Positions 1,725 to 64,000 of a DNA stretch of 64,000 nucleotides are shown piece by piece. Both the position numbers and the translations under genes were made by a program. Position 1 is the stretch's first letter, and each line of letters starts with the position of its first letter. The stretch comes from Utricularia gibba (Eukaryota; Streptophyta; Magnoliopsida; Lamiales; Lentibulariaceae). The stretch spans positions 372,001 through 436,000 of the forward strand of contig NEEC01000024.1 of the NCBI GenBank assembly GCA_002189035.1, read 5' to 3'. The notes beneath the pieces are model-generated. The model saw only the letters and a list, made by a program, of their open reading frames with translations. It was not told where the DNA came from and did no database searches.

Positions 1725-2989
1725 GGGCGCGTTTTATTGTTGGGTAAGGCCTAAACCCAGGTTTAGTTTATTTGGGTTTAGGTAATGATAACACATATTT
1801 TTGAGTGATTGAGTGCATGGAAATGACTCATATTGTGCTACAAAACTTAAGTTTTACTGCCTAGTTCTATATTTTTACACATAGTACCATAGTTGTGTTT
1901 TTTTAGTCTTAGTTGGGACTAAATTGATTTAGTTCCAACCTTACTTTTAATAGTTTTCTTTGAGTAATGCAGCACATGTCGGCAACACAAATCCCAAGGA
2001 ACCAAATATGTATAGTGTAGTAGCAGAGGATGAGGCAAAAGTTTGAAAAGAAGAACACAAAATCCAAGGAGAGGAAAAAGGAGGATTTTAGATAAAAAGG
2101 GGACAAGATGAAGAGAGAAAAAAGATCTCTCCATTGTGACATACGACATAGCTTTCTGAAGAAGTATTATGGGGGAAGAAGGAAGGGGACGATGAACCAG
2201 AAGAACAAGTTTCCCTTTTGAAGATTTTCTTTCGTTCTTGATGAGCATTATTCCTAGCTGAAACTAGTTTTAGTTTTCCCTACGTGAACAATTTACTGTT
2301 TATGCTCTGTTATGCATTTTGTGTTATTGTTTAACCTTGAGAACAAAATTTTGCTTAGAATATGTTATGGAAATGCTTTACTTTCCCTTGCTATGAGTGG
2401 CTAAGCACTTGGAGGGGTGCCTTGGGGCAAAAGGGGTGTAAAGTGTTAGTCAATCATTTGACCTTGTTAATCATAGATCACACCACTTCTTTATCAAACC
2501 AAGATAGATCCGGGAGGAGGAAGGAATGATATTCATCTTAAAAATCCTAATTAGAGGAAGACCAAAGATTAGGGGAAAAAAGGGTTTGGTAGACCTAAAC
2601 TCTTGCTTGTTAGACGTATGATTTGTGGTATATGTTAGGTTATTTTAGTGATAAACATGCAAGTCCTAGAAGTCCTAAGGCACACCCATCTCATTTAGGT
2701 ACAACCGAGTTTACAAGTTTGTCACTTTTCTTTGCTGTTTTTTAGCCAACTCTGTCTTAGTCCTAGTTAACACCAAATCTATCAATGTGACACTGATTGT
2801 ATGTATTAACTTTCACATAGCAAGCACCTAGCTCCTTGTGTTCAACCCTAGTCAACTATGCACATATTTTTCATATGATTTGATGTGAATTAGGTGTAAA
2901 AATTTTATTTGATAGGAAGATTTGCATATTAACGACATTGCAAATTTTTTGTTTATTAGGTAAATGGATTTTATGGGTTTTGAAGATTA

Positions 2990-3075
2990 TTCGTGTTTGG
3001 TTAATGGGTTTAAATTATTTGAGTTTAAGACTAATACACATTTGGTACGTGGGTATAAAATTGGGTTTCTGTTGA
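2990..3075 (+). repeat. Inner left terminal inverted repeat candidate
   Basis: This starts directly after TTA (2987-2989) with TTCGTGTTTGGTTAATGGG. It shares CATTTGGTACGTGGGT with the complement of the right end, which has CGTTTGGTTCGTGGGT at the corresponding distance. The long imperfect match makes this a strong rival to position 1725 as the true left end. Confidence 0.5.
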
Positions 3076-3411
3076 ATTTTCATATGAAATTACCAATATA
3101 ACCTTCCCCAACAATAATTACTTCTTTTTATTACAATTTGTTTTCCCTTTCCTCCACCAACTTTCACACCCAGTTCATTGCGGTGCTGTCGCCTGACAAG
3201 ATCTCCATCGACTTCACCAGTAATTGAGGTTAAAAAGCCATGGGTTAACTCTAGATTGCATACCCCGTTCGTTGCGTAGAGTTTCTCACTTGAAATTCAT
3301 TGAATTTCGAGTCAATTTTATGGTTTACTTGTTCTACGTCCTCATTTTAGTTGCTTTGTTCTTGCTGTTTTCTTTCCTCCAGTACAAATTGAAGGCATGC
3401 ATAGCCTAATC

Positions 3412-4343
3412 ATGGTGGAAGACTCTCACAAAACTACAAAGCGCATCTGGAAGCCAGATGAGGAGAAGGACTTGGTGCATGCTCTGAAGCAGATAGTGAA
3501 AGAAGGCTGGAAAATTGAGAATGGTTTCAGGGGTGGGTATCATCGAGCATTAGAGACAGAGTTCTTGAACTTTGTCCAAGAACCGACATCCGCGCACACG
3601 CGCACATATCCAGCAAGATGCATACATGGAAAAAAGACTACTACCTCCTTGTACTCATGATGTTATATCCGGTGCTTGCCATGTTATTATGTCAGGATGC
3701 ACCCAAGCTGCGTGTCGTAAGATACAAAGTGTGGCCGTATTACATGGAGTTTTAGGAAATCGTTGGAAAGGATCAGGCTACAGGAGATAATATGATGAGC
3801 TATGTAGGTGCGACCAGGAAGAGGAAACTGATAGAAGATGTTGAGGTGAATCTGGATGCATCTTTGGATTGCCCTCGGGACCCTGATAGCACTGGACATG
3901 ATATGAACTTCTCGTATGCTAACACACCTTGTGACCCATTTGGTTGTGGTGCGGAGGGTGTGAACATCACACCTAGTAGGGACTCCGAGTCACACAATAG
4001 CACCGACTCCGCATGGAGGTCTAGACGAAGCGGGCGGGGACCAAGGGGAATCGATGATGATGCACAGTACCTCAAAGAAATGAAGGAGCTGAACATGTGC
4101 ACATGTGAGGAGCTATGTCACTTGGGATTAACAGTGGTGCAGCAAGCACGGGAGTTGGTGGACAATCAGTGTTAGGCAAGGGAGATCATTAGAGGTATAC
4201 CGCTGCAACTAACTGCCATCTAACATTTTACCATAGCAGAGATGATCAATTCCAACCATGCGAGGTTGCACTACTTCCTTTCCTTGAGTGACCGTGAAAG
4301 AGAGCTGATTGTGTGTGGTTTTGCATCCGAACATAGATCTTAA
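3412..4343 (+). pseudogene. Myb/SANT-like DNA-binding protein of a PIF/Harbinger element (decayed)
   Basis: In PIF/Harbinger elements a second ORF encodes a Myb/SANT-like protein that binds the element ends and assists the transposase. The start at 3412 opens with the signature RIWKPDEEKDLVHAL, followed by KEGWKIENGFRGGY, which is the Myb_DNA-bind_3 pattern of a helix with W, EGW and GFR-GY. The frame is then lost over about 150 bases. A family-typical GKDQATG element appears near 3770, and an open stretch runs from 3792 to 4175. The same frame continues past two stops with a C-terminal segment (AEMINSNHARLHYFLSLSDRE) to 4343. At least one frameshift and two stops make it a pseudogene. The family call is confident; function is lost. 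Confidence 0.8.
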
Positions 4344-4845
4344 ATCTGTTGTGCGGTTTTTGGCATTATGCTGGACTCATGGGCTAGATGTATTTCCTCT
4401 TCTAATCATTTTTTAAGCAAATACATATTGTATTCCACGTGAAAATATAGGTGAAGGATGACTACATGTAACTGATATAAGCACTATGTAGGGTCGACAG
4501 TGTTCCGACCTCCCATTTGGAAGCACTACGTACGAACAAGCGCGGTGTTATGGTGTGAAGCACTACTCGATTAACGCAATGCTTCAAACAATGCCACATT
4601 CAGTGTGGTGCTACCAAGAAGTGATGCAACAACACAACATTGGTTTTGCCTATTACGAAGCACCACGTTTGGACATAGGGTTTAGTGGTTAGTGATGGCA
4701 CCGGATTTGAAAACATGCGGTGCTGCCACGATAGTTGTTTGATCAAATACTAACAAAGTTAGAATACCATAGTTCACGTCAGATCCATGCAAATTAAAGG
4801 TACATCATGTATCACACAATAACCTTGTAATGCATCCACAATGGG

Positions 4846-5806
4846 TGTTCCTCGTCTGTCGGACATTGACCTACTCGTCGGCGATTGACATGCGTGGGTA
4901 CATCCATTACGTCAATGAGTACTTCTAGGAATGACCTAATATCACCCTCTCGAACTAGGGAGCAATCGTTGACCGTGGTGTACTTGAAGGTGGTTGGGAA
5001 TATGGCATTTTCAGGCGGTCCAATGAAAGTAAGTGATCATTAGGTGCAAGATGGTGGAGAATGAGGGTGATCCAAAAACTCACCGAGTTGTGTAGTGACT
5101 TGTACAGCACATCGTCGACCATTAGCGTATTAAGACAGTGATATTTGCCCTTGAACTCTGTGTTGGCGCTCCAAACATGGTTCAAAAGCTTCAACTTCGT
5201 GGTGTTGTTCCTGTTGTAGTGCAATTGTTCACTGAAACATGTCAAAAAAAACAACCATCAGCATCGTGCGGATCCCATTGTCTGCTAACTGGTCAATCTT
5301 ACCATCCTCTCGAAGACTAGATGGCGACGTCAAAGTGTTCCATGCAAAACTGTATCAACTCACGTGCACCTGGTCGAAGATACACTACAACAAATAGTAC
5401 CGACACATGCTACAAATATTAAATGCATATCAAATACAACACATTACCATTTCGCCCATAATAAACGGCATCCAGCTTCAGCGCTACCCACCTGACATCC
5501 TGAGGATACACAATGTCCGCAAGTACACCATTCACATCGAATATTATCAACATTCTTGGTGGGACTACAACGTTGCTCGACAGTCCACTATATGGCCATC
5601 TACCTTCATACCATGCAAGCCGTCCATAGAGTTCAAGATTCTCAACGTACTGTCTCTCTAGCTCAGCGTACTTTGCAGTGGCTGCACTGCACCCATCATC
5701 GCGTGTCGAGATCGGTGTTGGTCCATCACTTTTTCCCCCGCCTTCTAGCTGCGCATTTTCATCCTCTTCATACCATAGATGTTGTCTATGGTGTCGAGGG
5801 GTTCCA
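4846..5806 (-). pseudogene. FCP1/NLI-interacting-factor-like phosphatase gene fragment (captured)
   Basis: Reading the reverse strand gives an open segment ending in MLIIFDVNGVLADIV, which resembles the HAD-phosphatase motif I of plant NIF-like proteins (usually DLNGLL). A GTAATG...TTGTAG interval near 5363-5448 looks like a retained intron. It is followed by LRPGARELIQFC and EHFDVAI then SSREDGK, matching the RP..DEFLKFC...DV.IWSS block with the Trp codon turned into a stop. Later, in shifted frames, come EFKGKYHCLNTLMVDDVLYK and NAIFPTTFKYTTVNDCSL, matching the family's DD..YKAL and AIFP.TYKY.D..DNSL blocks. A retained intron points to capture from genomic DNA, not from mRNA. Stops and frameshifts exclude a working enzyme. 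Confidence 0.75.
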
Positions 5807-7160
5807 TACTATAGATGTTGTGTTCTAGGGGCATTGACAAAGGGTGGCAAGACTTCCTCTAGTGACTTTGTTCTGCAAGAGAACAAATTCACAAACCTCT
5901 TTGCTGCACGCTTTTGCAATACCTCGATGCCTACAACAAGAACAACAAAAAGCATGACTTCTGTTGTAGACGAATTTATAATATTCGACATATTTGTATG
6001 TGATTACCTGATGGGTGTCCAACATTCCCTAGCACTATCAACGTTGTTGTCCATTCTGGAGCATTGGGTGCACATACACATACAAAACTAGTCCACCAAT
6101 CATCATCTGTGCTTCTCACATCTGTAACCAGAACCATGCCAGGTTTTCCATGAAGAGAATAGTGTGGACTCCCCTTACGTTGCACACACATGGAAACCGC
6201 AAAGAAGACATGCATTTCTGGAGGTATATCCTCCTCTTCACAGATCTGCAGAAACGCGAGTACGAGCACCACAGAATGTGTGAGGTGCGAGAGTGGGATC
6301 CGGAGTACAGCAAGTATCTGCACCAAGAAAGGAGGCGGGGTCAGTTGCAATCCACACCAAAAGTGCTCAGTGCTGACGGTGAATCCTGATGCTCCAACTT
6401 TGGATGGCGGTTCGGAGTCGGATGTTTTGCCTGTTGTTTATCCCACATCACGTAACCGTCGGGTATTCAAAAGCGGGCACGTAGTTTGTCACACGTCAAC
6501 ATCTACAAAAAAAATAGAAATCTAACTAGATGAAAGAAAGGAAGAATCTAAAACGCTAATGCACTTGTTCCTACCGTCACGACATTGTTCCGATGAGGTT
6601 GTGAAGGAATCCCGTGTATGCGGTACCACTGCACATATGTCGAAAGGATGGAGGTGTAAGGGCATGATTAAATAAGTTGTTTTGGAAAGTGGGAAATGCG
6701 GTGCTCCTGTAAACATGCTTCGACAACCGATTTTTTTATGATGACTTAATATTCCTAAAAACATCCAAACTATCTCCAGAACCGTAACATATTTTCCAAC
6801 CTTTAAACTAGAACGATTTTCTAACAGGCTAAATAAAATACAAAAGACATCTCGGCTGATTCTCAAGTTCTCAATAGATGCGCTATTCACATCACTCACT
6901 AACCTACTAATATACTCAACTTGTTTAGGAATCTTGTCTATAAGGGAATTCTCACACTATATCCCCTACGGTAATTTTTACAATATAAGTATATTCACAC
7001 ATTCATCCCAACCAAGTATTCAGTTAATACTGCTGCAGCCACACTTAAGATGACATGACCCTCCATGGAAAAATCCATGTCCCCTCAACAATAGAAAAAA
7101 TCAAGCAAAATAAATCCACACAGCACCACTAATTTTGAAATTGGAAAATCACAGAACACA
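5807..7160. other. Interior of the Harbinger-like element, unrecognised
   Basis: Open frames exist on both strands, up to about 125 codons, but none shows a family motif. I looked in particular for the DDE blocks of a Harbinger transposase and did not find them. A short imperfect direct repeat with an 'atagatgttgt' core lies near 5773-5822. Confidence 0.4.
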
Positions 7161-7439
7161 CATACTATGCGGTGCTGCCGTGGACAAATTCACCAAGAAC
7201 AGAAAAGACACTTACCGGAAGACCCACCCTTTGCGGCCAAAGTGCTCGCGACGCCACTGGCAATTCACGAACCTAGCATTAGGTTTGTAGATCTGCATTC
7301 AAATGTGGATGACGTGGGGGTAAAATTGGAAGCCACGAGCCTTGTTTACCTAAATCGAGCACCCCTCATGGGTTTAGCTAAACACAGCTCGGCGGGTTCC
7401 TGCCAGGTATATAGGCACCTAGAGGGGTTTATTTTTACT

Positions 7440-7520
7440 TGTCTAAAACCCACGAACCAAACGTGGGTTTATGTCAAACCCACGCCACAACCCACCTAAA
7501 CCATTCAATCAAACGCACCC
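7440..7520 (-). repeat. Right terminal inverted repeat of the Harbinger-like element
   Basis: This stretch ends in AAACGCACCC and is followed by TTA at 7521-7523. It contains repeated CCCACG and AACCCAC motifs that are mirrored at the left-end candidates. Confidence 0.6.
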
Positions 7521-7739
7521 TTAAGAATAAGAAAACAGCAATGCACCAAGAATCGCTAGAAGTCAACTTGGATATGTTCTCTTTGCCTTCTCAGATCTAA
7601 ATGTATACCTAGATGAAAGCTTGTCTCTGCATTTGAGATGTTGCTCTCATTTTCTACGAAAAAACTTAATATAATGATCATACTCACTGGTCATATTTTA
7701 ATCTCTATTAGGTCTCTAACAAAGGGAACATAAGCTAGA

Positions 7740-9480
7740 TTTAGGTTGCACTAATTTAGTCTTTAGCCCATGTAAATTGAGGATAACTGCAAGCCCAACA
7801 ATTTCCCGCATTCAGCTTATGTTTATCTCAATTTCTGACTTCCACCAATCCTAACCTGCTCATGTGAGACTGGTGTTTGACAAAGGACAACATTTTTGTA
7901 AGCACATCAGCAATTATTTCCAGATTGATAGCTCCACCTGAGATGATGTTTCGGATCCAATACTACGTAGTCAGAGTACACTATAGGCCTAGCTTTTAGG
8001 AAACTGAACTCATCCATGATTCTTCCAAGTCACAACACTTCCTTTACTATCTCTATTAATGTCATATACTCAACCTTGATAGTTGATAGAGCAAAAATTT
8101 TGTAGATGTGAGGTCTAGGTAACAGGAACTCCAACAACCATGTTGAGCATTCATGTTGTCAATTTTCTTGAGCCAATATGTTGTGCCATATCCGCATCTA
8201 TGTAAACTTGTGAGATGATGCTTCCCATACCGTAACTCAACTTGCATTATTTTGTGCCTTTGATATAATGCAATAGCCATTTCACACCATCCCAATGTTG
8301 CTTTCCAGGATTCTCCATGTACCTACTTATCACACTTATAGCACATGTTATATGCAGTCAAGTGCAAATCATCAAGTACATTAGGGAATCAACAATAGAA
8401 GAGTAAGATACCTTGCTCATCATCTCCCTTTCAATTTCTGTTTTTGGTGACATTTGGGAAGAAAATTTCAGATGTCCAAGGAGTGGTCCCAACACTGGTT
8501 TTGCTCCATCCATCTGAAATTTCTTCAAGACAAATTCAGTGTACTTATTTGGAGACAATGTTAAGGTCCTTTTGGTTCTGTCTCTTATTATGTCTAATCC
8601 AAAAATTTTCTTGGCTTCACCCAAGTCCTTTATCTCAAAAACAATAGCCATTTCTCTTTTTAGGTTTTGTAAGCATCTTATTTGGACTAGCTATTAGCAT
8701 ATCATCAACATATAATAGTAGAAAGATGCATTCAACATTTGATTTTTTCTTTTAGTAGGCGCAATGATCTCCTTCACATCTCTTAAATCCATAAGGGTAT
8801 TGAATTTATAATACCACTCATGAAGTGCTTGTTTAAGTCTATACAATCTTCCTCCAAGTCTAGACACAAGATCTTATTTTCCATGTTCTATAAATCCCTC
8901 AACTTGTTTCATATACAGTTCTTCATCGAGGTCCCCATGCAGATATGTCTCACTATTCAAGTTTTGAATCAAGGTGAGCCGTTAGGGACAACACAAGCCT
9001 TACTATATTCAACTTTATGATAGGTGAGAAGATTTCTTCATAATCTATGCCTTTCTTTCATCAATATCCCATCACTTCCACCATTGCTTTGTATCTAACA
9101 CTTCCATTTGGATTATGTTTCAACTTGAGTATCCATAAGTTTTCTAGAGGCTTCTTTCTAGTAGGTAGTTTCACAAGCTCATAGGTGCTGTTCTTTCTTA
9201 GAGATAAGCTTTCTTTACTGTCTGAGCTTCTCCCTCTTCTTTTATCAAGGCAATATCAAGCATATCTTCTCTAAATCAACAAGATATCTCGATGAAGGAA
9301 CATGTGGTCTTGATGATATTCAGATTTGGCACTCCCCTTTAATCAAGTGCCTTTTAGCTTCCCTAAATTCTCTGTTATTAATATGACTTTCATCACCTTG
9401 TGTTGTGTTAATCTGTTGTATGTCAAAAATTGTTTCATTCTCTAAAAACTAGAATACTCCCAAGGCACACTATCTTACTA
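7740..9480 (-). pseudogene. Ty1/copia pol relic (linker, reverse transcriptase, RNase H)
   Basis: Read on the reverse strand from 9480 downward, the order is an integrase-RT linker, then YELVKLPTRKKPLENLW, KKGIDYEEIFSPIIKLN, THYLHGDLDEELYM-like, EWYYKFNTLM and YVDDMLIASPNK. The longest intact piece (8358-8651) holds FEIKDLGEAKKIFGLDIIRD and a PYSS-type SLMYLM block. RNase H remnants follow to about 7740. This is the canonical copia RT-RNase H order. Frameshifts separate nearly every block. No gag, protease or integrase core adjoins it, so the element is 5' truncated. Confidence 0.85.
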
Positions 9481-62689: not shown

Positions 62690-63900
62690 ACTACTTCTAG
62701 AAGAAAAAAATCTAAGATAGAGGATCGGTGGAGGGACGACATGTCCCTCTAGCCTTGCTCTCAGCTTGGCCTCATTCTACCACTGGATCCTAACCTGAAT
62801 TAGCACTATTAGGCGCTCTCGATCTACTCCAAACCTGAATTCCGGGGCTTCAAACACATCCAGCATATTCTCACTTCTTTGTCAAGGGGTAGTGATTGAT
62901 AGCCAAAATGTCCGGCTAAATTGATGCCTCTACGGTAGAAGAGCAGGCCAATTAGATCCCCCACATAAATGTCAGAGAGCTCGGCAAAGCAAGCCGAGTC
63001 AACAAAGTTGTCGAGGAGCAAAAATGCGATCTTGAGCATGCTTCAACTCCAACTCGGTTTCTTCAAACCTAACTTTAGGAACCGGATCAAAGGGGATGGG
63101 GATTATCGAGTCAGAAGTAAGAGGTGCTGCCGAGTTAGAGGGAATGTTGTGTGGAGATTGCAAGAGATGTTGGTACTCTAACTCAAAACTAGGAGGAATG
63201 ATGAAATCAAGCCACTGTACATCTCGATTGCGACCGAGAATCCCACAGGCCGATAAGGAATCTCGTGAAAGCATCAAGGCCCGAGACTTGAACCTAACAA
63301 AACATTCACCAAGTCTGCGATATACATCCCTACGTGACTCATTCGAGGGATGGAATCGGCCAAATGGTTTAAATTTTAAAGAAGAAGGGGGCTTCACCGG
63401 AAAATTCCATCTGGCACCCAACGAAGGAGCAATCCAAATAAAGGAAGGCCACTAGTCATGGTGGGTATCAGGGGCTTGAGGGCAAAGTCAAGGTGATCTT
63501 CAAATCAGCGGAATTAAAAGTGAGAAAAACCATGCATCGCGCGTTTAGCCTTACGGACCGCAACCTTGAAGAGTTGGAAGGAGTCCACTAGGGTCATACC
63601 CGTGTCCATACCTGCCGAATAAAAAAGGAAGGTAGTGAAGCAGAAAATCGAGTTTGGGGATAGGCAATAAAGTGGAATGGCAAATATGTCCAGAAATTGG
63701 ATGATAAGAGGGTGAAGCGGAAAGCGAAGACCACTTTCCAGATAAGCTATGAGAATTGGGAGACTAAAATGGGGAAGGGGTCGTTCTCCCACACCCCAAG
63801 GTATTTGGCTGTCCTTGGCCTGGCTGACAACATAGTTATCAAGGATCGAGTACTTAGCCCGAATAGCAGGAATGTTCAACTCGCTAGACTTCCTACCCAT
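62690..63900 (-). pseudogene. Antisense ORF of Tat-2 (putative gypsy-type transposon protein)
   Basis: The reverse strand opens at 63900 with MGRKSSELNIPAIR, followed by PLPHFSLPILIAYLESGLRF, PLHPLIIQFLDIF and LSPNSIFCFTTFLF. This pattern (GLR.PLHP....L......LSPN.W......) is that of the plant 'putative gypsy type transposon' family. After a shift, 62999-63421 continues with FGRFHPSNESRRDVYRRL and a stretch ending in ELELKHAQDRIF, and 62824-63039 with SACFAELSDIYVGDLIGLL. At least two shifts break it. The three Tat copies in this window all carry it in the same antisense position. Function of the family is unknown to me. Confidence 0.75.
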
Positions 63901-64000
63901 CTCGACTGAGGAAATCAGAAAACAGAAGAACTCAAAATAGGAGAAGAAAAACCCTAGGGGAAATGGAGGCCCAAAAAAATCATGAAACCCGCTGAAATTG

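Follow-up and report, generated by a model that had tools for sequence, protein, structure and literature searches.

A third gene joining a Transposase_28 domain to a predicted NIF/FCP1-like phosphatase domain in PIF/Harbinger elements of Utricularia gibba

Here, we describe a Harbinger-like sequence in a 64,000-nucleotide stretch of Utricularia gibba DNA (the window) that is a decayed, non-autonomous copy of a three-gene PIF/Harbinger family. Judged by its domain matches, the third gene of this family is a chimera of a Transposase_28 (T28) domain, a linker and a predicted NIF/FCP1-like HAD phosphatase domain. By identity and history, the element very probably belongs to a Harbinger lineage that has long retained T28-NIF as an accessory gene, which is partly derived from a host gene and was under constraint during the activity of the elements.

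Results

The whole element occupies positions 1725-7520 of the window and, as read in the sequence, is flanked by TTA on both sides (target site duplications at 1722-1724, immediately before its first base, and at 7521-7523, immediately after its last). The 5' terminal inverted repeat with its subterminal region (1725-1785, plus strand) aligns to some 20 other copies over 61 bp at 80-90%, the 3' terminal inverted repeat (7485-7520, minus strand) was matched to other copies, and the window termini, GGGCGCGTTT... and ...AAACGCACCC, agree with those of other copies in the same genome. An initial annotation of this DNA had proposed a Harbinger-like element with TTA on both sides, and its coordinates proved exact. 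A search for further copies with the same termini, as suggested there, returned many in the same genome, and the phosphatase part lies inside the element borders, with about 30 related copies.

The family displays the features by which PIF/Harbinger elements are recognized. Terminal inverted repeats start with G or A, and GGGCGCGTTTGGTTGCTGGG and its inverse are seen across copies. The 3-bp duplication follows the TWA pattern, with TTA in the window and in copy L059 and TAA in L047, L057, and L058, while some copies are flanked by other trinucleotides or by no matched pair. The DDE_Tnp_4 transposase, deleted in the window copy, is present in the full-length copy L059 (1.1e-7 and 1.2e-13). The Myb/SANT ORF previously noted on the plus strand of the window is indeed present at about 3390-4175, and its counterpart in L059 passes the Pfam cut-off for Myb_DNA-bind_3 (3.8e-6).

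The region is nevertheless no single clean element, as the window copy contains a nested repeat and three deletions. The nested repeat (1786-2958, plus strand; ~1.17 kb, starting with TGATAACA) is LTR-like and foreign to the Harbinger element, into whose 5' subterminal region it is inserted. It is bordered by a GGTAA duplication (1781-1785 and 2959-2963), has no counterpart in other element copies, and occurs alone elsewhere in the genome. Compared with other copies, the decayed Myb/SANT-like ORF1 (3390-4175, plus strand) misses ~97 bp near 3653-3661, the third gene has lost 92 bp between GTGCA repeats near 5220 (exon D), and ~1.6 kb is gone near 6691-6704. The DDE core falls in this last missing part, which holds DDE_Tnp_4 in full-length copies, and of the Harbinger transposase only an N-terminal remnant persists at 6704-6956 (minus strand). 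The NIF domain is also incomplete in the window copy. The fragment-like look of this copy is explained by its being a decayed deletion derivative. Outside the element, a Ty1/copia-type reverse-transcriptase-like reading frame was noticed by eye at 8358-8690 of the window (minus strand).

The structure of the third gene was derived from 20 fetched copies, the middle region of which was aligned for a majority reading. The aligned copies yield five exons with four GT-AG introns and one continuous frame of 512 aa. On the spliced majority model, Transposase_28 (PF04195, 3.2e-10) and NIF (PF03031, 3.6e-10, positions 1-159 of 160) are both above the Pfam cut-off, and the window exons align to this model in the right order at 68-85% amino acid identity; Pfam searches with single window frames of the phosphatase gave nothing above detection. 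The ordered phosphatase blocks reported earlier on the minus strand are thus NIF/FCP1-like, and the retained GT-AG intron reported with them is real, although the gene has four such introns instead of one.

In the window, all five exons lie on the minus strand. Exon A (6008-6502, followed by GT at 6007-6006) holds the decayed T28 domain, recognized by PF04195 on the spliced model to which the window was aligned. Exon B (5448-5930), with AG and GT at its edges, encodes an acidic linker, a coiled stretch, and the first NIF motif (FDVNGVLADI). The NIF domain continues in exon C (5303-5384) with RPGARELIQFCMEHFDVAI.SSR; this exon has one stop in the window copy, and its intron phases, 1 and 2, are common to the host gene L035 discussed below. 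Exon D (5084-5231), placed by alignment to the family, carries the second acidic NIF motif and the 92-bp deletion, and exon E (4812-5018), at 85% amino acid identity to the family model, encodes the C-terminal end of NIF and the stop. Instead of the DxDx[T/V] catalytic motif of NIF/FCP1-like proteins, the element gene has DVNGV and L035 has DVNGL. Catalysis by the NIF domain is uncertain because the second Asp of this first HAD motif is replaced by Asn, as in the host gene. Fold prediction of the T28 exon, with sequences of six loci, reached a mean pLDDT of 33, too low for a usable model. No intact third gene was found among the copies read, and 19 of 19 scored copies have stops, frameshifts, or lost exons. 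A second Transposase_28-like gene piece, extending over more than one frame, is located at 63002-63999 of the window (minus strand); over a 90-aa stretch, its identity to the third gene of the Harbinger family is 29%. No NIF domain was seen in it, and it probably derives from another transposon.

About 30 close loci in the same genome are 69-87% identical in DNA to the window stretch 4800-6100. Full-length relatives of about 6.2-6.6 kb (e.g., L047, L053, and L059) comprise, in this order, the Myb/SANT ORF1 on the plus strand and then the T28-NIF gene and the DDE transposase, both on the minus strand. Layouts were counted from the genome coordinates of DDE_Tnp_4, Transposase_28, and Myb_DNA-bind_3 around NIF loci. 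Among the matches listed, DDE_Tnp_4 is upstream on the same strand at 21 of the 30 close NIF loci and Myb is downstream on the opposite strand at 11 of 30. The NIF part also matches many distant places, at 35-66% amino acid identity and with identical exon breaks. For 64 such distant loci, again among the matches listed, a same-strand DDE lies upstream at 13, an opposite-strand Myb lies downstream at 12, and both are present at eight; neither is nearby at 47, some of which may be in other contexts. Controls in the wrong orientation gave 0-2, and chance accounts for about 0.003 per locus. A distant NIF-domain match with 42% amino acid identity is also seen outside the window, close to its left edge and ~3.5 kb away from the element (G000:C460:370221-370487, plus strand).

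Genome-wide, the Harbinger DDE-Myb pairs listed (n=62) fall into 25 same-strand and 37 opposite-strand layouts. NIF accompanies 16 of the 37 opposite-orientation pairs versus one of the 25 same-strand pairs, and that one is possibly rearranged; T28-NIF is, in essence, restricted to Harbinger elements with the opposite-strand layout. The assessment of most distant families is based on coordinates, and L061 is the one that was read in sequence. Between L061 and the window family, amino acid identity is 60% for T28, 49% for NIF, and 73% for the transposase, and synonymous sites are saturated. One could argue that T28-NIF is an independent gene family, of the host or of another transposon, which Harbinger elements captured several times, as T28 is upstream at 27 of the 64 distant NIF loci but DDE or Myb is nearby at 17 (matches listed). 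We consider this unlikely. Where DDE or Myb is present, order and strand are nearly always identical, T28, NIF, and transposase have all diverged between the window family and L061, and the same-strand Myb-transposase loci offer only the single, possibly rearranged exception.

Variation among the copies separates the fate of dead copies from the history of the active gene. Singletons in the third gene have an N/S of 2.20 versus a neutral 2.58 expected from their own mutation spectrum and include 24 stops versus 25 expected; dead copies of the third gene thus drift neutrally. Variants found in at least three copies have an N/S of 1.04 versus a neutral value of about 2.6, i.e., ~0.4 of neutral, and the effect is gone when the gene is read out of frame (2.21 and 3.76). 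Shared-variant N/S is 1.12 for ORF1 (neutral 2.81) and 0.58 for the transposase. Given the low shared-variant N/S and the flat out-of-frame controls, the third gene was under constraint while the elements were active, at a strength about that on ORF1 and weaker than that on the transposase. Mutation bias was considered as a cause of the low N/S and rejected, as the effect persists when CpG changes or all transitions are left out and disappears in the out-of-frame readings.

Transposition of Ping/Pong and of zebrafish Harbinger requires both ORF1 and the transposase (PMC2836001), and the third gene is therefore probably accessory. That these are the two proteins Ping/Pong transposition needs would also suit a passive hitch-hiker, i.e., an old capture spread by the transposition of its carrier with no benefit to the element, as would the decay of every copy read and the near-neutral singleton N/S. 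Such a passenger is difficult to reconcile with a shared-variant N/S that is as far below neutral as that of ORF1 and flat out of frame, and with saturated synonymous sites versus 49-60% amino acid identity between families, and we give it a low probability.

A search of the same genome for a parent gene, as the initial annotation had advised, led to the related host HAD/NIF gene L035, which has a DVNG motif like the element gene. Both genes have three introns at matching positions and in matching phases (phase 1 before V-x-x-RP, phase 2 after W-S/T-S-R, and phase 0 after NP), and L035 carries two extra introns that are absent from the element gene. By sequence comparison, the NIF half and this host gene are homologous, with three of the host introns retained in the element, which points to a host gene as its source at the DNA level. 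No T28 half was detected by alignment at the host HAD/NIF loci. The closest host genes found are about 25-48% identical in amino acids per matched stretch (the genome may be incomplete), which indicates that the acquisition is old and rules out a recent capture from the nearest host gene. The earlier proposal of capture at the DNA level thus stands for the host origin but not for a capture by the window element, as the gene is old and family-wide.

This bears on the central claim of the initial annotation, in which the window Harbinger element appeared to have captured a phosphatase gene fragment with its intron, in the manner of a Pack-type element; in such a reading, the host fragment is inert cargo. 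The window copy invites it, as the transposase core is gone and the phosphatase exons, separated by introns that match the host gene, are disabled; moreover, there is precedent in grapevine, where PIF elements have taken up exons together with introns (PMC2528002), and in maize and rice, which harbor Pack-PIF elements (PMC8903248). A Pack-type fragment, however, would be absent from autonomous relatives and closely similar to a host gene, whereas this gene sits beside ORF1 and the transposase, in the same place in about 30 close and many distant copies, and its closest host relatives have the low identities given above. It is also complete in the majority reading, fused to T28, and under purifying selection. 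We deem the Pack-type reading refuted by the family-wide distribution and leave it almost no probability.

Discussion

The favored reading of a long-retained accessory gene suggests the following scenario. The NIF half would have been acquired at the DNA level before the lineage split into its present families and fused to a type of T28 domain also present outside these elements. The resulting T28-NIF gene would have been kept as an accessory gene whose protein helps the element multiply. T28 might serve for targeting or interaction, and the NIF domain might be a phosphatase or phospho-binding module. Based on these predicted domains, it is conceivable, if far from assured, that the T28-NIF protein is a nuclear regulator of the element's silencing, transcription, or transposase. 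More speculatively, and by analogy, this long-lived plant Harbinger branch might encode a T28-phosphatase regulator of its own, acting against host silencing or in the control of transposition, as a counterpart of VANC/KIU in Mutator-like elements.

It is already known that Harbinger elements have two ORFs as a rule (PMC4482050) and that grapevine, maize, and rice PIF elements can contain captured fragments (PMC2528002, PMC8903248). In the open-access literature, we found no precedent for Harbinger with NLI interacting factor, a third open reading frame, or ORF3, and none was evident by title and abstract for Harbinger with haloacid dehalogenase or FCP1. Nor did we find a description there of a conserved T28-NIF gene in Harbinger elements, for which our evidence comes from one genome. 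A third gene composed of a host-derived enzyme part and a transposon-type domain, selected across several families, would add a layer to the persistence of Harbinger elements. After Mutator-like elements, a second superfamily would thereby have turned captured host enzymes into functional genes of its own. It makes testable the use of phosphatases by plant transposons against silencing or for transposition control. It is also a warning that decayed copies of such elements can pass for Pack-type gene capture.

Among known systems, the PHIS superfamily (PIF, Pong, MtPH) shares with the present elements the TTA/TAA duplication, short G-rich terminal inverted repeats, the Myb/SANT ORF1, and the DDE_Tnp_4 transposase. 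In a survey of PHIS elements, two ORFs are listed, with Myb/SANT or YqaJ as the product of the additional ORF (PMC4482050), and ORF order varies in Medicago Harbinger elements (PMC2213677). In contrast to these two-ORF elements, a third, chimeric T28-NIF gene is here located between ORF1 and the transposase, which face each other. The plant HAD/NIF (FCP1-like) genes L035 and L029 of the same genome resemble the third gene in their NIF domain, and L035 also in the DVNG motif and three introns, but differ by their low identity, by the two extra introns of L035, and by the T28 half, which was not detected at these loci. Pack-PIF elements and the transduplicating Pifvine-3 are likewise Harbinger-type elements carrying host exons and introns (PMC8903248, PMC2528002). 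They hold fragments in non-autonomous elements or in some copies only, whereas the T28-NIF gene is complete and constrained in transposase-encoding elements. The closest parallel is provided by the KIU/Kaonashi genes of non-TIR MULEs, in which a host enzyme domain was captured long ago, is conserved, and belongs to one of three element genes (PMC13317346). KIU is a ULP1 fusion in Mutator-like elements, and VANC-type proteins relieve silencing (PMC13317346). Unlike the Harbinger gene described here, KIU/Kaonashi belongs to the Mutator superfamily and encodes a ULP1 protease, and its fusion partner is VANC, a demethylation factor.
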